DNA from: Parelaphostrongylus tenuis
Lineage: Eukaryota > Nematoda > Chromadorea > Rhabditida > Metastrongylidae
NCBI GenBank assembly: GCA_019055375.1
Contig: JAHQIW010000835.1
Coordinates: forward strand, 1-64,000
Direction: 5' to 3'
DNA: 64,000 nt
The notes below the pieces were generated by a model. That model ran no database searches. It was given only the letters and a program-made list of their open reading frames with translations, and was not told the origin of the DNA. Positions 1,271-59,267 of this stretch are shown here, in pieces (position 1 is the first letter of the stretch; every line of letters starts with the position of its first letter). Position numbers and translations under genes: made by a program.

Positions 1271-1915
1271 ATAAAAAAATAGACTTTCAGCCACTATTGA
1301 GCATTTTTATTGCCTGTATTGCGAGAACGTAGCTTGAAAACACATCTTCTACAACTGAACATCTTTAGTAGAGGTCTATGTGGAGGTATTTCTAATACGT
1401 AGCTCGTGTAAGTGTAGGAAGAGCGCGCGTTCATCATTGCGTATGATACGGTATCAGTACCTATATGCAGAAAAAAGTATTTATCGCTTTTTGTAGACAC
1501 TTTAATAGTTATTCGATAGCTCAAATCTTGCAAAATTGAAAAGTGTGACTTCATTTTCTGAAAGGTCTCTGTAATACACTGTAACAGGGCAAAGTCTATG
1601 TTATCTAACACTTCAGCATCTTTCGATGAGCAAAGCCCTTCCTCACAAAATTCAGCATTTCTTCTTTAACACAAATTTCTACAAATTTAACTTGAAAATT
1701 TCAAGGATTTGTTTGCTTTTCGGAAGAGAGTTCTTAGTTCGCTGTTACAGGTAGAAGAACATTGAGCTTTACACTCGTTGCGCACCGTACGCCACATAAA
1801 AACTACGAGGAGCGACCGACAAGGCGCCGAGTGCGAAACTCAATATCTTTTAGCTGTTATAACGCACCGAAACGTCCTTCTCAGAAACCAAACTCATCAT
1901 AGGATACAATTCAAA

Positions 1916-2697
1916 AGTTCGACTTTCTATAAACCTCGGCATAATTAACTGTTATATGAAAATCGAGAAAAACTTATCTTGACTAGCTGACGCGAGGTTG
2001 GTAAATTAGTCGTAGAAGTTCGGCTGACGTTTCGGCGACCCGCCTTCTTAAGAGCCTGGGCGTATGTAGTGGTAGACTATTTGAATGGTTCAAATGGTCT
2101 TATTTATATGCTGTCTAGGTCAAGTTAGAAGATCAAACGAAGAAAGGGCGCGAGCTCTCGTGTGATGGTGACGCACTCGTCCTTCCGATTCATTTCGGAT
2201 TTTGGACGTTTATCCAAAATGCCTCAAGAGTCTTGCGCGTGGATGTTTCTGATTCCTGCGCTAAGATTGTGACAGTCACATCAAAATCGTTGTTGTTGCG
2301 TTTTTGTGCCCTATGTAAACCTAAAGCTTTCGTTTTATCTATTTCAGATCCACTATCTAGATGTTCTCTTATGCGGACGAAAAGTGGTCTACCCGTTTCG
2401 CCTATATATTCTTCCCCGCATGTTTTACATGTTAGTAAATAAATTGTGCCCGATCTCATACAATCTCCCTCTTTTCCGTTAGGGCAGATCATACAGTTTT
2501 TGGTGTTGCACAGTCGATCATAAAGTCTCTTGCGCATCAACTGATGGCGTAGGGTGGGAAGTGGAACTTCAACATCTACCACGGAACTTTCAAGACCGCA
2601 TCTTTTTAGGCACCTTTTAACCGCGCTACTAATTTCGTTTGATATAAATGGCAGTTTGAAGGGAACTCTATTCAGGTGCGGAGTATTGTTCTTTTGA
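1916..2697 (-). mobile_element. Penelope-like element copy P1, GIY-YIG end and 3' terminus
   Basis: On the minus strand 2582-2190 encodes a GIY-YIG endonuclease domain of Penelope-like retroelements. It shows a cysteine cluster (C30, C33, C41), then GTIYLLTC, then EEYIGETGRP, then RIREHL. The open frame extends back to about 2680, where homology to copy P2 (from about 5100) stops, so the copy is 5' truncated. A base lost near 2220 shifts the last codons out of frame. The 3' region to about 1930 contains a hammerhead motif at 2022-2056 and ends with the same terminal sequence as copies P2 and P3. The RT domain is absent. Confidence 0.88.
2022..2056 (-). ncRNA. Hammerhead ribozyme motif in PLE copy P1, decayed
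   Basis: Read on the minus strand it has stem I GGCT/AGCC, stem II GGCG/CGCC and the GAAACGTC stem III and cleavage block. The conserved CUGANGA box is CTTAAGA, a G5 to U change that should abolish catalysis. Intact relatives lie at 56565-56599 and, with wobble pairs, at 6539-6573. Confidence 0.6.
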
Positions 2698-4385
2698 TTT
2701 TTTGGCAGTTGGAAATATTCATTCTAATATCATTATATCACAAATTGTTCATGCAACAGACACTCACAGCGCGGCCTTTGGCACCTAGCCCCACAGGAAC
2801 TCCATTAGTGTTAAGAGTAGATTTGATGTTATTCATACAGTTGCTCAGATACGTCATCATCAAAATCGGTGCCAACTGAAAACATCATTTTAATAAAAGC
2901 AAAGACAACTCGACAAGTTCCATAAGGAAAGAGAAAGCAATGGAATCAATGTCGCGCTACTCACCGCCGGTTTCTCCTTTCTATAGTCATGTCAGGTTCC
3001 GGTAGAGAACAGCCCTCACTATTCACTGGAACAAAACTATTACTTGACAAATGCAAAGACGTCCGCACCCATACAACAATAAACATCAATTTTGAATGAC
3101 ATGCTTGTATCAGACTGCTTTTATATTTTCAATTCATTTGGTATCACAAAAATGAGAGAATCTATGAAAACGCATCACTATTATCAAACGTATTGATGTT
3201 ATCCTTTCGGGAGATTCCAGAAGGATTTGGGATGCTCAAAAACCGTACTAAGAGCTAAAACTATGACGTGTATTCGACTATATATTAACCAAAACATCAA
3301 AACACATCAGCTCTTCTTGTGACTTGCATTAAATGCCTCTGTAAAGTGCTGTTCTGATACTTGGGACAGTGTTTGCAAAACGGGTACTACATCATCAGCT
3401 GTCAGTACAGGAGTCGGTGGCGCGCTACTCTAAAAAGGTAGAATATTATTTGATCCTTATATTTTTAAGTTATTGGAATAAAGGGCTGCGTATAGGCTGA
3501 TGTCACTAAGTCGAACATTGCCTCCATTATACATGAAAACAAGCGCATGGTTAATAACATTCCAAACATTTCAACCGAGTACCCTAAATATCTGTAAATA
3601 AGAGCAGTCTGTGCTAGAAAGTAGATGCGTGCGTACACTTTTTCCCGTAATTTCGTTGACTCTATCTTTTCCTAGTTTTGAATTTTCTTGTTTTTTTCCA
3701 CTTAAATATGCACTTTTATTTATAAATGACGAAAAACTATTTCATTACCAAAATGCGCGCGTAGTGTCCATCCTTTCTTCATAAATGAATCGCTTTTATT
3801 CAAAGATAATTAGGTACTGAAAGATATAAGAAAAAAATTTGAAAAACATCAACGACAGAAGAACGTCTCACAGGAAAGCTAACACTGACCCATTAACTAC
3901 TTTACAGCACGAAAGCATCTTTTCAAATTGACAGCATCACTCAAATGAACAATAACTTCCGGTATTATCAGTGATTGTCACGATTGGTAAATTAGAGATA
4001 TTGCTCCGACTAATTTCTGAAGTTCCAACCACTATAATGCTAAAACAATAACTGTTTTTGCTATAAGACTTATAAGTGAATTTTGTTTCGGACAATTTCA
4101 CCATGATTACTTTTAGCGTCTTTTTCTTATTCAACAACTGTCATAGAGCGCTCTATTTGAAACTCAATTTACAAGAAATTTTACGCTGTTCAAATCATGC
4201 TTTGAAATAATAAATGTAGCACCATTCATTTCGCTCCTTAAGTTCAAATTGGATGTAAAACAAGAATAGCGACATCAAATAACAGTGAGAGAGGGAAAGC
4301 TTTCAGAGGAGTAAAGCAGAGATAATATAGCAGTTCTTCTCCCGAATAACTGCTCTGATGCTTGCTGCTCAATCTACTTTACATG
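2698..4385. other. Gene-free stretch
   Basis: AT-rich sequence with only short chance reading frames. I see no coding motif, RNA gene or recognisable repeat here. Confidence 0.5.
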
Positions 4386-4571
4386 TATAGCAAATCTCCC
4401 AATGGAGTTTGCTATCTTTTCGGGAATTCCATGATAATTTAGCCAACGCAGATGGTTCATGACCTTCGAGAGCAAATGGTATCGCAGAGGTTCGAGGACC
4501 TTAGACAGAAAGTGGTGCAAGGGGCGAGGGCGGCACCCAGCTGCCACCAACCTCAACAGACAGTTCAATCC
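4386..4571. repeat. Dispersed repeat R1, copy 1
   Basis: About 185 bp that recurs in the same orientation at 31503-31684 with many shared blocks, such as GCTATCTTTTCGGGAATT and GGCGGCACCCAGCTGCCACC. No coding potential is evident. Copy 1 ends about 20 bp before the tRNA-like cluster, which is not found next to copy 2. Confidence 0.75.
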
Positions 4572-4591
4572 CCACACAATGCACTAAATGT

Positions 4592-4663
4592 GCATCGGTG
4601 ATTCAGCGGTAGAATTGCTCGCCTGCCACGCGGGCGACTCAGGTTCGATTCCTGGTCGATGCA
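4592..4663 (+). tRNA. tRNA-Gly(GCC)-like gene or retro-pseudogene
   Basis: The sequence folds as a cloverleaf. The acceptor GCATCGG pairs with TCGATGC (one G.T). The D-arm is ATTC/GAAT. The anticodon stem CTCGC/GCGGG has loop CTGCCAC (anticodon GCC), and the T-arm has loop TTCGATT. Two things argue against a standard gene: one extra T sits between the D-arm and the anticodon arm, and the discriminator A is followed by a genomic CCA at 4664-4666. Eukaryotic nuclear tRNA genes do not encode CCA, so this may be a reverse-transcribed mature tRNA or the head of a SINE. A working tRNA gene is still possible. Confidence 0.65.
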
Positions 4664-4695
4664 CCAAGATTGTAGCAAAGGCGCCACCAGAAAAT

Positions 4696-4766
4696 GCATT
4701 GGTAGTTCCGTGGTAGAGAGATGGCACCCCAAACTGGCGATCCGGCTTTGATCCCACGCCAACGCA
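4696..4766 (+). tRNA. Degenerate tRNA-Gly-like sequence (plus arm of palindrome)
   Basis: It starts GCATTGGTAGTTC and ends CCAACGC plus A, giving an acceptor stem with one mismatch. The D-loop is GTGGTAGAG-like. The expected anticodon position reads CCC and the T-loop is degenerate (TTTGATC). It lies in inverted orientation to 4774-4844, so an RNA through both would form a long hairpin. Probably a pseudogene or tRNA-derived repeat. Confidence 0.45.
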
Positions 4767-4773
4767 CATTTGG

Positions 4774-4844
4774 TGCCCTGGGCGGAGATCGAACCAGCGT
4801 CGTCAGCGTGGCGTGCCATCCCTCTACCACTGAACCACCAATGC
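4774..4844 (-). tRNA. Degenerate tRNA-Gly-like sequence (minus arm of palindrome)
   Basis: On the minus strand it reads GCATTGGTGGTTCAGTGG for the acceptor and D-arm, a loop containing GCC at the anticodon position, a GGTTCGATC B-box, then CCAGGGC plus A. Like the tRNA at 4592 it is followed by a genomic CCA (4771-4773 on plus). The acceptor stem has one mismatch. It is a close inverted relative of 4696-4766. Confidence 0.5.
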
Positions 4845-5151
4845 ATTGGGTATCGCCTTTGCTACAACATATATACCTCAGGAGACTGCTTCGCATTACT
4901 CGTAGGATTGTTCATTTCTAATAATTCCAACTATTGATTGCATAGTATTTATCCAAGTTCTCTGTAGGTTTATTGATATCGGTGTCTTGATGTTGTCGTA
5001 TTATAATGTACGTACACCGATTTTATTGCCCAAGTTTACAGCTTGATCTACTGCAGTGAACGAAAATTACCGCATGACGAAACGATGAGAAAAGCATTCT
5101 ACACGGAAGAATCGCAGCAGAAGAATACCAACCCATCTACTCAATACCCAA

Positions 5152-5685
5152 ATGTTCCTAGATCACCTACGTTGCGCGATACCAAACAACTCGCACGTAA
5201 TGGAGTCATTTGATGTTATCTCACTCTACAAAAACGTATCAAATGACTCTGCAATGCAAGCCATTTCTAAACTCTTAAATGAAAATGAACAAAAAGTAAA
5301 TATGCATGGCTTCACATTTCAACAACTAATGACCCTCCTAAAACAATGTCATAGTTGTTCAGTTTTTCGGAGGTCGGGAAAGTACCTTAAACAACTCAGA
5401 GGGTTAGCCATGGGTCAACGTTTAGCACCTAGTCTTGCCATCGCTTTTATGTATAAGATGGAAGCTTCAGTTCTCCTTCACCGCCCATTGCTCTACTGCC
5501 GATATATAGACGATTGCTTCATTTTCTGTTCCACCCACGAGGAAATGGACAAGTGTTTTGAAATCTTGAACGGACAGTCAGAGAATATAAAATCTACGCG
5601 AGAGAGTACAAACGGGAGCTGGCTTCCATTCTTAAACATCCAAGTAAAGCTTTTGGATAGTGGCTATAGTACAAGATGGTATTGA
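5152..5685 (+). pseudogene. Penelope-like reverse transcriptase fragment
   Basis: The 177-aa frame holds the RT core motifs in order: FDVISLYKNV (residues 20-29, motif A with its Asp at 21), RGLAMGQRLAPSLA (motif B) and YCRYIDDCF, where Y-I-D-D at 118-121 is the catalytic pair of motif C. The spacing and the AMGQRLAPSLA block are typical of Penelope-like elements rather than LINEs or LTR elements. A stop at 5683-5685 ends the frame; the following sequence still resembles the PLE thumb region but with further stops. Not functional. Confidence 0.88.
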
Positions 5686-5934
5686 AAACCAAGTAATAAA
5701 AACATTTTGGTTAATCACCTTTCCTCTCATCCTTCACGCAGGAAAAAATCTCTAATTAAAAACATGTTTCGAACGGATAAAAATGTGTACACAGGAGAAG
5801 AATAGAGGAACGAATCATCAGAGTTGGCAAGAAAAATTGCCATTTCCAACGGCTACAAAACATCTGCTACTTGGGAATATTCAAAAAGTGGAATTAGGTC
5901 CCTGAAGAACGATACTCCACACCTGACTAAATTC

Positions 5935-6470
5935 CCTTCAAACTGCCATTTATATCAAACGAAATTAGTAGCGCGGTTAAAAGGTGCCTAAAAAGATGCG
6001 GTCTTGAAAGTTCCGTGGTAGATGTTGAAGTTCCACTTCCCACCCTACGCCATCAGCTGATCCGCAATAGACTTTATGATCGATTGTGCAACACCAAAAA
6101 CTGTATGATCTGCCCTAACGGAAAAGAAGGGGATTGTATGAGATCGGGCACAATTTATTTACTAACTTGTACAACATGCGGGGAAGAATTTATAGCGAAA
6201 CGGGTAGACCACTTTTCGTTCGCATAAGAGAACATCTAGATAATAAATCTAAATTAAATAACGAAAGCTTTAGGTTTACATAGGGCACAAAAACACAACA
6301 ACAACGATTTTGATGTGACTATCACAATCCTCGCGCAGGAATCAGAAACATCCACGCGCAAGACTATTGAGGCATTTAGGATAAACGCCCAAAATCCCGA
6401 AATGAATCGGAAGGACGAGTGCGTCACCATCACACGAGATCTCGCACCCTTTCTTCGTTTTATCTTCTAA
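5935..6470 (+). pseudogene. Degenerate GIY-YIG endonuclease domain of PLE copy P2
   Basis: 6015-6227 parallels copy P1 almost residue for residue through the cysteine cluster and the TIYLLTC strand. It loses the frame at the YIG motif, where one G is missing near 6192 (FIAKRVD replaces YIGETGR). Homology resumes in another frame and runs to the end of the protein near 6468 (block CVTITRDLAPFLRF). A deletion also removes part of the stretch after the GIY-YIG core. Confidence 0.85.
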
Positions 6471-6538
6471 CTTGACCTAGACAGCATATAAATAAGACCA
6501 TTCGAACCATTCAAATAGTCTACTACTTTATACGCCCA

Positions 6539-6573
6539 GGCTCTGAAGAAGGCGGGTCGTCGAAACGTCAGCC
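6539..6573 (+). ncRNA. Hammerhead ribozyme motif in PLE copy P2
   Basis: Stem I GGCT/AGCC, core CTGAAGA (fits CUGANGA), stem II GGCG/CGTC with one G.T wobble, then GAA, a two-base stem III ACGT and C as the cleavage residue. This minimal stem III layout is the one reported for hammerheads in Penelope-like elements. All core bases are present; activity is an inference. Confidence 0.72.
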
Positions 6574-6649
6574 GAACTTCTACGACTAATTTACCAACCT
6601 CGCGTCAGCTAATCAAGATAAGTTTTCTCGATTATCATAGGATAGTTAG

Positions 6650-56200: not shown

Positions 56201-56672
56201 AATTGATATATAAAAATCGAGAAAACTTATCTTGATTAGCTGGCGCGAGCTTACAACATCTACACAGTAAATCTAAAATAGATATAACCAAACCTTTAGG
56301 TTTACATAGGGCACAAAAACACAACAACAAGGATTTTGATGTGACTGTCACAATCCTGGCGCAGGAATCAAAAACGTCCACGCGCAAGACTCTTGAGGCA
56401 TTTTGGATAAACTCCAAAAACCCCGAAATGAACCGAAAGGAAGAATGTGTCACCATCACACGAGATCTCGCGCCATTTCTTCGTTTTATCTACTAACCTG
56501 ACCTAGGTAGCATATAAATAAGACCATCCGAATCATTCAAATAGACTAACACTACATACGCCCAGGCTCTGAAGAAGGCGTGTCGCCGAAACGTCAGCCG
56601 AATTCTACAACTACTTTACCAACCTCGCGCCAGCTAATCAAGATAAGTTTTCTCGATTTTCATATATCAATT
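56201..56672 (+). mobile_element. PLE copy P3: 3' end with inverted terminal copy
   Basis: 56300-56498 encodes the last residues of the PLE protein (GLHRAQKHNNKDFDVTVTIL ... CVTITRDLAPFLRF, then stop), followed by the 3' UTR. 56624-56672 is the PLE 3' terminus. The same 49 bp occurs inverted, with one mismatch, at 56201-56249 on the left side. The copy is therefore a 472-bp unit bounded by inverted repeats. Homology to copy P1 continues about 45 bp past the right repeat. Confidence 0.88.
56565..56599 (+). ncRNA. Hammerhead ribozyme motif in PLE copy P3, intact core
   Basis: Stem I GGCT/AGCC, core CTGAAGA, stem II GGCG/CGCC with loop TGT, GAA, stem III ACGT, and cleavage expected after C56595. 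All bases of the consensus core and both stems are Watson-Crick. Best of the three PLE copies. Confidence 0.78.
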
Positions 56673-57405: not shown

Positions 57406-57484
57406 GAACCTCAGACGAGAATCGCACCCGCATTTCACCTTGTTAGGTAGCGCGTGTTGACCGATTGCACTACTGAGGCGCCTA
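57406..57484 (-). repeat. tRNA-like SINE head, copy 2
   Basis: On minus: CAGTAGTGCAATCGGTCAAC (A-box-like) and GGGTGCGATTCTCG (B-box). It aligns end to end with 56751-56820, so both derive from one tRNA-derived repeat. Confidence 0.5.
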
Positions 57485-58143: not shown

Positions 58144-58325
58144 AATATTTGTGAATTCGGCCCAGGACAAGCGTTGATCTTATACGCAGTCTAAAACTGT
58201 ATACCTAAATATAACCTTGGCTCTGGAATTTCTTTTTAGCGTAATGGCAGAATACTTTTGGTGAAAGACGTGAAAATGAAAATTGTGAGTAAAGTAAGGA
58301 TATGACATATTTTGAGCCATAGGTC

Positions 58326-58378
58326 TAGTGCTATATAGGCGCCTATTTCGTCCTATTGGGACTCATCAGTAGCACCCT
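58326..58378 (-). ncRNA. Hammerhead ribozyme, unit 1, intact, minus strand
   Basis: Exact reverse complement of unit 2: CTGATGA is encoded by TCATCAG at 58363-58369, and stem I by 58370-58375 with 58328-58333. Transcripts of the minus strand would carry this ribozyme, while plus transcripts carry unit 2. Confidence 0.85.
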
Positions 58379-58393
58379 CCCTCGGTTCCGTCG

Positions 58394-58426
<33 letters not shown>
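58394..58426. repeat. (ACT)n trinucleotide repeat in the ribozyme element
   Basis: About 11 ACT units forming the loop between the inverted arms. Confidence 0.9.
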
Positions 58427-58427
58427 G

Positions 58428-58480
58428 ATGGTGCTACTGATGAGTCCCAATAGGACGAAATAGGCGCCTATATAGCACTA
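58428..58480 (+). ncRNA. Hammerhead ribozyme, unit 2, intact
   Basis: Stem I GTGCTA (58431-58436) pairs with TAGCAC (58473-58478). Core CTGATGA is at 58437-58443, stem II GTCC/GGAC with loop CAATA, then GAA, stem III ATAG/CTAT with loop GCGC, and the cleavage triplet ATA ending at 58472. This is a type I hammerhead with every consensus base. Confidence 0.85.
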
Positions 58481-58709
58481 GACCTATGGCTCAAAATATG
58501 TCATATCCTTATCAGATTAAATCATTTTGAGCGGGCCTGTAAAAAAGCAGTCGATAGAAGAAGTATAGATTCATTTTAAAAGCCGTAAGCTCGACTGCCG
58601 GTCACCACAAAGTCAGGTAATAACATCATCCTACTTTGGGTGCTTAATTTTACTCGGCGTCGGTTCCTTTAGAGGATTGTTTACCTCAAGGGATCGACGG
58701 AACCGAGGA

Positions 58710-58762
58710 AGGGTGCTACCGATGAGTCACAATAGGACGAAATAGGCGCCTATATAGCACTA
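58710..58762 (+). ncRNA. Hammerhead ribozyme, unit 3, decayed
   Basis: Same layout as unit 2, but the core is CCGATGA (U4 to C) and stem II is weakened (GTCA opposite GGAC). Probably inactive. Stem I, stem III and the ATA cleavage site are unchanged. Confidence 0.75.
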
Positions 58763-58860
58763 GACCTATGGCTCAAAATATGTCATATCCTTATCAGATT
58801 AAATCATTTTGAGCGGGTCTGTAAAAAAGCAGTCGATAGAAGAAGTATGTGAGTAAAGTA

Positions 58861-59267
58861 TTAAGCTGCCAGGAAATTTTCCGGGCTTTTTCGTTTTACT
58901 TGATTACTTTTCAAGCATTTGAGCTTTTGTTTTTACTATAATTTACAGCAGCTTCTTGCAGTTATTCTGATATGTAACGCTTTCACATTTGCGCTAAGAT
59001 GGAATTATCCCGAAAGCAGAAACGATTGTTGATGCTACACCAGTATCGTTGCGTACCCAAGCAGCTTTTGAACCCAGTCGATACTCATATAGCGTCAACA
59101 ATTGTTTCGCTCTCGCAACGATCTCATTTCAAAGCAAATGTTTGGGTGCTTTATATAAAAATAACCACAAGAAGCTTTTCTAAACGACAGTTAAAGCAAG
59201 AAACAAATGCATAATAAATAATTAAGAAAAACGAAAAAGTCCGGAAAATTTCTCGCTAACCCAATAA
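58861..59267. mobile_element. Mariner-derived MITE with transposase N-terminal remnant
   Basis: Inverted ends TTAAGCTGCCAGG and TTATTGGGTTAGCGAG (right, complemented) share AAATTTTCCGGRCTTTTTCG, with TA on each outer side. The frame 58999-59214 begins MELSRKQKRLLMLHQYRC, a mariner transposase start, then becomes nonsense. Internal deletion derivative, different from the bandit-like foldback family. Confidence 0.8.

Follow-up and report, generated by a model that had tools for sequence, protein, structure and literature searches.

A head-to-head hammerhead retrozyme in Parelaphostrongylus tenuis, probably mobilised by Penelope-like elements

The insertion and its ribozymes

The window, by which we mean the whole stretch of 64,000 nucleotides analysed here, contains an insertion of 551 bp (58297-58847) flanked by target-site duplications that form an exact 13-bp repeat, TGTGAGTAAAGTA, at 58284-58296 on the left and 58848-58860 on the right. 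Its type I hammerhead units, one inverted and two direct, have a repeat period of 282 bp. Unit positions (q) are counted from the first base past the ribozyme cut, q1, with the 282-nt unit of contig C3232 as the reference, and the parts of the insertion were placed by alignment to this unit. From left to right these parts are an inverted arm on the reverse strand (58297-58394; q222-282 and q1-37), whose outer end after correction for the duplication is site A (q37); a 32-nt filler of CTA/ACT repeat that links the arms, delimited by junction analysis (58395-58426); a first direct partial unit on the forward strand that reaches the cut site of unit 2 (58427-58472; q237-282); a complete 282-nt unit from cut site to cut site, also forward (58473-58754); and a last forward partial unit (58755-58847; q1-93), whose outer end is site B (q93). 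The inverted arms are 99% alike over 85 nt, 82 nt of these being identical, and the inverted arm agrees at 100% over 100 nt with a unit of another copy. The original prediction, which gave identical inverted arms of 81 bp and flanking repeats of 12 bp, was right about the near-identity and about the presence of a duplication, and both sizes needed correction.

Three hammerhead units, two of them intact and in opposite orientation, had been recognised by eye, and a search with the 27-nt ribozyme core and the Rfam model find them at the same places. Unit 1 (58328-58375, reverse strand, cut between 58334 and 58333) and unit 2 (58431-58478, forward strand, cut between 58472 and 58473) contain the core with no mismatch, at 58343-58369 (-) and 58437-58463 (+), and unit 3 (58713-58760, forward strand) contains it with two mismatches at 58719-58745 (+), for a chance expectation of 0.00. 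Unit 3 had been called decayed, and indeed it is altered in the core (CCGATGA for CTGATGA) and in helix II (GTCA for GTCC). The fold follows the type I order, with GTGCTA, CTGATGA, GTCC/GGAC, GAA, ATAG/CTAT and A before the cut and TAGCAC after it, and the four pairs of helix III with the GCGC loop make up a 12-nt palindrome. Against the Rfam Hammerhead_1 model (RF00163), units 1, 2 and 3 score 29.5, 29.5 and 17.1 bits (E = 4e-5, 4e-5 and 0.5, with 751 bases searched). The gathering score of this model is 34 bits, and because all three units lie below it, a search of the window at the gathering level returns two tRNAs only and no hammerhead. The covariance-model check proposed with the original prediction gave a match for every unit, in each case under the Rfam gathering score. 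The two tRNA matches lie at 4592-4663 and 57407-57479 (48.3 and 33.9 bits). Directly past the insertion there is a 49-nt inverted repeat (58873-58921 and 59204-59252, 86% complementary, with 282 nt between the halves) that may be another small element.

A genome search with Hammerhead_1 at E ≤ 10 listed 69 matches (74 of 119811 candidates scored), 20 of the 69 above the gathering score; at the same threshold the model also matches in 11 of 14 control genomes, never above the gathering score. A scan for the ribozyme pattern gave 212 places in overlapping loci, and since that scan itself filters on pairing, covariation was taken instead from 53 distinct copies picked by alignment. In these copies 93.1% of the cells of the ribozyme helices pair and 6 of the 14 pairs are altered on both sides, values of which neither is reached in any of 500 shuffles. 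When the register is slid, 25-41% of cells pair and covariation does not exceed 0.037, compared with 0.114 in the true register, and the control slid by -1 has nine pairs altered on both sides, more than the six of the true register. One pair of helix III is C-G in place of U-A in 12 rows (ACAG/CTGT instead of ATAG/CTAT). Judged from these aligned copies, the covarying ribozyme helices show that the RNA fold has been under selection. A second, divergent hammerhead-like pair in head-to-head arrangement, with helix II GCCT/AGGC and a ACAGGCCTGT palindrome, occurs at positions 44-250 of locus L043; it scores below the Rfam cut-off and perhaps represents another retrozyme family.

Genomic copies and their ends

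The search of the host genome for further copies that the original prediction had suggested (G000; 481.5 Mb in 5105 contigs) found 1429 exact copies of the 27-nt core, 681 forward and 748 reverse, and none of the reversed control; a 141-base query has at least 44 genomic matches (40 of 1418 candidates scored). Of the 1429 core places, the first 100 fall in 63 clusters, and 25 of these clusters contain more than one exact core, 22 in head-to-head and 3 in same-strand arrangement. Among the same 100 places, neighbours on opposite strands within 1.5 kb are always (-)(+) (22 cases, with no (+)(-)), and 15 same-strand neighbours are spaced 280-285 bp. The arrays have the form (-)n(+)m, that is, tandem units set head to head, and can be long, as on contig C4833, where inverted units extend over 3.9 kb (about 13) and direct units over 1.2 kb (about 4). 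We merged the fetched loci into 20 stretches, numbered from the ribozyme cut; these 20 best-matching stretches are mostly 95-100% alike. The supposed likeness to retrozyme tandem repeats is borne out by these further 282-bp copies with type I hammerheads. One insertion with identical flanks is present four times (L003, L004, L005 and L006, on C4926, at two places on C3537 and on C1553), which could reflect a segmental duplication, a larger carrier or uncollapsed haplotypes. The 22-base nematode spliced leader SL1 has 102 exact copies in the genome (reversed control 0), and on contig C3131 the exact spliced leader stands in a tandem array with a spacing of mostly about 568 bp.

The ends of the insertions were analysed at 44 non-redundant loci, namely 16 of the 20 stretches and 28 of 30 Rfam loci. 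Among the stretches, C3689 was dropped because it aligned poorly, and C3537_99020, C1553 and C4926 because their insertion is already represented by C3537_29279; the Rfam loci dropped were L034, a mirror of L033, and L036, which overlaps L035. A target duplication of at least 9 bp is found in 27 of the 44 loci and is absent at that length in 17. The mode is 12 bp (12 loci), followed by 13 bp (7), 11 and 15 bp (3 each) and 9 and 14 bp (1 each), so that the insertion by a retrotransposition-like process that had been proposed for the window copy agrees with the wider set. Within the 27 loci, the 46 outer 3' ends fall at q33-49 (site A, 25 ends), at q79-102 (site B, 20 ends) and once at q16; sites A and B lie about 50 nt apart on the RNA. 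The two sites are paired within insertions. Among the 19 head-to-head insertions with a duplication, 16 are clear A/B, the window copy being one of them (left end A at q37, right end B at q93), one is A/A, two are unclear and none is B/B [P = 0.002 for at least 16 of 19 A/B if the sites were independent]. The exceptions are C4489, which is A/A, L043, which is q16/B, and L049, which joins an A end to an end at q79 with 11 untemplated bases. A further 13 head-to-head loci lack a duplication of at least 9 bp; with the alignment ends as the only guide, 8 of them are A/B-like and 4 are not (L032, L033, L041 and L060). The last of the 13, the composite C4000, has two B-like outer ends (89/96) and an inner pair at q50/q96. 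In addition there are 5'-truncated copies of a single arm with target duplications (C1554, C3232, C2894, C694 and L045).

The bases at these ends agree with the target more often than expected. Microhomology between target and RNA has a mean of 1.95 nt, against 0.55 in shuffles, and none of 2000 shuffles is as high; the test covers 44 of the 46 ends and leaves out the two with untemplated bases. The longest microhomology is 6 nt (C3537, C780). This pattern fits annealing of each target 3' end to the RNA, as far as the end sequences tell.

The arms of one insertion also resemble each other in their variants. Allele sharing is 0.91 between arms within an insertion and 0.82 between insertions [permutation P = 0.0006], the value within being the higher one for 10 of the 12 insertions. 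The exceptions are C907 and C4489, whose arms are closer to those of other insertions than to one another, and because its arms agree poorly and its ends are A/A, C4489 may stem from two RNAs. On C4833, variant 86C>A is carried by every one of the 16 listed units spanning that position (11 inverted, 5 direct), with two unit-long gaps unscored; it is also present in C679 and C1554. The arrays on C4926, C1695, C1323 and C907 are mosaics of haplotypes, and hence not every array comes from one circle, and template switching or multimeric RNA would also be involved. Gene conversion, once offered as a source of the arm identity in the window, is unneeded, since the 20 best stretches are mostly 95-100% alike and arms of the same insertion share variants.

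Penelope-like elements and the origin of the paired ends

Penelope-like elements (PLEs) of like anatomy are found in the same genome. GIY-YIG domains are abundant, at no fewer than 150 places (150 scored of 1723 candidates), with open frames of up to 902 aa, and the 22 neighbour pairs within 6 kb among the scored places comprise 20 (-)(+), none (+)(-), one (--) and one (++). At locus L074 a frame of 893 aa carries both RVT_1 and GIY-YIG, the duplication is 12 bp, the arm ends corrected for it lie about 59 nt and about 110 nt past the cut, and a minimal hammerhead can be putatively read in the sequence. A short end is likewise combined with a long one in L075 and L076, both of which have 12-bp duplications. 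Of five PLE insertions examined, four pair a short and a long ('tail') end with duplications of 11-12 bp, and the fifth, L077, is ambiguous; in a second PLE family, 12 ends picked from 44 matches were classed by eye as 7 short and 5 long. The window itself contains a head-to-head PLE insertion (1896-6644) between 11-bp duplications (1896-1906 and 6634-6644), with a long (B) end on the left and a short (A) end on the right, as judged by eye, and with coding parts at 2128-2669 (-) and 5125-6467 (+) degraded by stops. A PLE fragment on the forward strand (56254-56598), with C-terminal coding sequence at 56254-56493 and a putative minimal hammerhead stretch at 56562-56598, precedes the retrozyme by about 1.7 kb. 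Homologues of the PLE protein of this genome (103 listed, 7992 candidates scored) come, where the organism is named, mostly from strongylids (Necator, Ancylostoma, Haemonchus, Nippostrongylus). Together with the spliced leader copies, this gives good support to the strongylid nematode host presumed in the original prediction. A blastn comparison of retrozyme and PLE gave no alignable sequence, only matches of 19-20 nt with E values of 2.8 or worse, and an Rfam hammerhead search of eight PLE loci returned none at E up to 1.

In PLEs the tail stands optionally at one of the inverted pLTRs, according to the available text of PMC3846280, and it is bounded by two internal start sites of the reverse transcriptase, with both target strands cut and extended (PMC11167929). 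An inverted arm with a tail at one end is also what the retrozyme has, in the 16 clear A/B cases of 19. Further points of likeness to PLEs, as these two sources describe them in the portions available to us, are the head-to-head layout, the tandem copies, duplications of about 8-12 bp and a hammerhead upstream of two internal start sites. PLEs, unlike the retrozyme, encode a reverse transcriptase and a GIY-YIG nuclease; the 551-bp element has no such open reading frame and its longest stop-free stretch is 58 aa, so that it does not count as a PLE in spite of its PLE-like insertion. The hammerheads differ too, with a four-pair helix III in the retrozyme and a putative minimal form in the PLE of this genome. 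The microhomology and the A/B strand pairing of the retrozyme are unlike the PLE result in vitro (PMC11167929), where the start sites are reported to lack homology with the cut DNA and the two strands to behave alike.

Predicted folds bring the two RNAs closer. In the C3232 unit, folding places a hairpin around each priming site: hairpin A (q17-25 paired with q52-60), which transferred to the window lies at 58489-58532 (+) with the arms GCTCAAAAT and ATTTTGAGC and site A in its loop, and hairpin B (q75-82 with q118-125), at 58547-58598 (+) with the arms GCAGTCGA and TCGACTGC and a loop that includes site B and the motif AGAAGTA. For the PLE stretch the predicted fold likewise has two hairpins, GCTCA/TGAAGC and CAGTCGG/CCGACTG, and AGAAGTA lies in the loop of the latter, as in hairpin B. 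After dinucleotide shuffling of the PLE stretch, a stem arm common with the retrozyme appeared in 92 of 20000 trials, and in 3 of 20000 the loop contained AGAAGTA as well. As the common hairpin was spotted first and tested afterwards, these figures are support and not proof; by the fold model, the hairpin that can form at the distal site is similar in retrozyme and PLE RNAs. Most of the copies that span hairpins A and B are nearly identical.

The units, duplications, paired ends, microhomology, allele sharing of the arms and PLEs of like anatomy are all read from the DNA, and on their strength we regard the feature as a non-autonomous retrozyme mobilised by PLEs and inserted by dual target-primed reverse transcription, in which the two target strands prime at different sites of the RNA (probability about 0.8). 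The absence of alignable sequence between retrozyme and PLE, the exceptional insertions and the in-vitro findings on start sites and strands speak against it. The inverted first unit had originally been compared with twin priming or PLE-style insertion, and the further head-to-head copies and the PLEs of the same anatomy agree with that comparison.

Twin priming is known from L1 as an occasional outcome: each target strand primes a cDNA, and the two cDNAs are joined within the insertion. It leaves long target duplications, inverted 5' parts and joints that overlap or contain filler. All of these could be produced here in the same way by a LINE, for example RTE or CR1, if it moved the element through standard target-primed reverse transcription and twin priming were frequent. 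Nematostella repeats with 15-bp duplications have been likened to LINEs, at least in the available part of PMC4918200. We nevertheless consider a LINE improbable, as head-to-head clusters are here 22 of 25 multi-core clusters (within the first 100 core places) with two fixed priming sites, as most of the 19 insertions have arms that stop at two distinct and defined internal positions, which is the signature of the PLE tail, and as the PLEs of the same genome, the group that we compared, show paired ends with equal duplication length.

The inner junctions bear on another possibility, namely that the head-to-head form arises by self-priming or fold-back of a single cDNA or antisense template. 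This has been proposed for rotifer PLEs from palindromes at inverted junctions, as the accessible text of PMC3846280 relates. Fold-back finds some room in two of 32 inner junctions that lie within 10 nt of symmetry (C2499 and L043), but uniform placing alone predicts 2.4 such cases; the other 30 are asymmetric, and each outer end has its own priming site and target microhomology. We have set this explanation aside as a doubtful one. By alignment, 8 of the 32 junctions show an overlap and 24 have inserted bases, some of them element-like, and the long overlaps in L043 and L055 may be effects of the alignment; as far as can be read from these junctions, the pattern fits end joining of two cDNAs. 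At the inner junction of L047 there is a CA-rich filler of 119 nt, unlike most others, which may be compared with the CTA/ACT repeat of the window. Least credible of all is a satellite that recombination has spread, or a DNA transposon bounded by inverted ends, in either of which the hammerhead would be a relic, for although 282-bp tandem arrays are satellite-like and the inverted arms resemble terminal inverted repeats, the target duplications, the 5'-truncated single-arm copies that carry them, the variable truncation and inner ends, the two separate end positions and the covarying helices led us to set it aside.

Insertion mechanism and relation to known elements

For the PLE-mobilised retrozyme we propose the following course. 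Genomic copies would be transcribed as multimers, which the type I hammerheads would cleave into 282-nt monomers, and the monomers would probably be ligated into circles. The RT/GIY-YIG enzyme of PLEs in the same genome would take up the retrozyme RNA by reason of its two PLE-like hairpins, which present priming site A at about 33-49 nt and site B at about 87-102 nt past the cut. The enzyme would nick both target strands about 12 bp apart, and each target 3' end would pair with the RNA over a few nucleotides and prime a cDNA, site A serving one strand and site B the other. Copying round a circle or along a multimer would give tandem units, and the host would join the two cDNAs end to end, which would leave (-)n(+)m arrays whose inner junctions vary, flanked by a short target duplication. 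We infer the cutting of the RNA, the circles and the dependence on PLEs from the known retrozyme cycle (PMC7229834), and the joining step is likewise a proposal.

In its sequence the window unit fits the metazoan non-LTR retrozymes described by Cervera and de la Pena in 2020 (PMC7229834). As in the available text of that work, the hammerheads are of type I, here with an intact core in units 1 and 2; the non-coding tandem repeats fall in the range of about 150-450 bp with one hammerhead in each unit (282 nt here); GC is below 45% and coding capacity is absent (GC 0.429 and a longest stop-free stretch of 58 aa in the window unit, 0.440 and 93 aa in the C3232 unit read circularly); the target duplications exceed 4 bp (9-15 bp in 27 of the 44 loci); and PLEs coexist in the genome. 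The same source, in the part available, treats PLEs as a strong candidate for the enzyme that moves animal retrozymes; mobilisation by PLEs was suggested there from common traits and coexistence, whereas here the insertion ends give evidence for it. Like the plant LTR retrozymes, as far as PMC4918200 and PMC7229834 could be drawn on, the element is non-autonomous and has hammerheads that bound one unit. Plant LTR retrozymes differ in having type III hammerheads within LTRs, 4-bp duplications and LTR machinery, and for them, in those same portions, a circular RNA intermediate is shown, which is inferred in the present case. The hammerhead repeats of schistosomes, newts and cave crickets are likewise short tandem repeats with type I hammerheads, and head-to-head arrays with A/B ends are not described for them in the available parts of PMC7229834 and PMC4918200.

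Among the open-licence papers listed, none on a nematode retrozyme was found, nor, among those on twin priming with Penelope or on head-to-head PLEs, any retrozyme of head-to-head form. Words beginning with nematod- are absent from the main texts of PMC3088659, PMC4918200 and PMC7761336, as are words beginning with nematod-, inverted and opposite from the main text of PMC7229834. New here is the anatomy of the insertion, with head-to-head arrays whose ends are paired at two positions of the RNA about 50 nt apart, and as far as the open-licence literature shows, nematodes are added to the hosts of retrozymes.

The insertion ends of the retrozyme, bounded by target duplications, carry the signature of PLEs beside PLEs of the same genome. 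There is an even chance, in our estimate, that target-primed reverse transcription from two sites is the normal mode of PLE insertion, with retrozymes mimicking the pair of hairpins and with circular RNA giving rise to many tandem units. If this is true, one RNA with two priming hairpins, each used once and one for each cut strand, would account both for the head-to-head layout and for a tail on one side only. Two primers on one RNA, as in the A/B pairing, also offer a simple explanation, open to test, for two peculiar traits of PLEs: the inversion of a pLTR and a tail that is present only in some cases. Since the first 100 of the 1429 cores already fall into 63 clusters, this genome probably holds hundreds of natural insertions in which the priming rules of PLEs can be studied.
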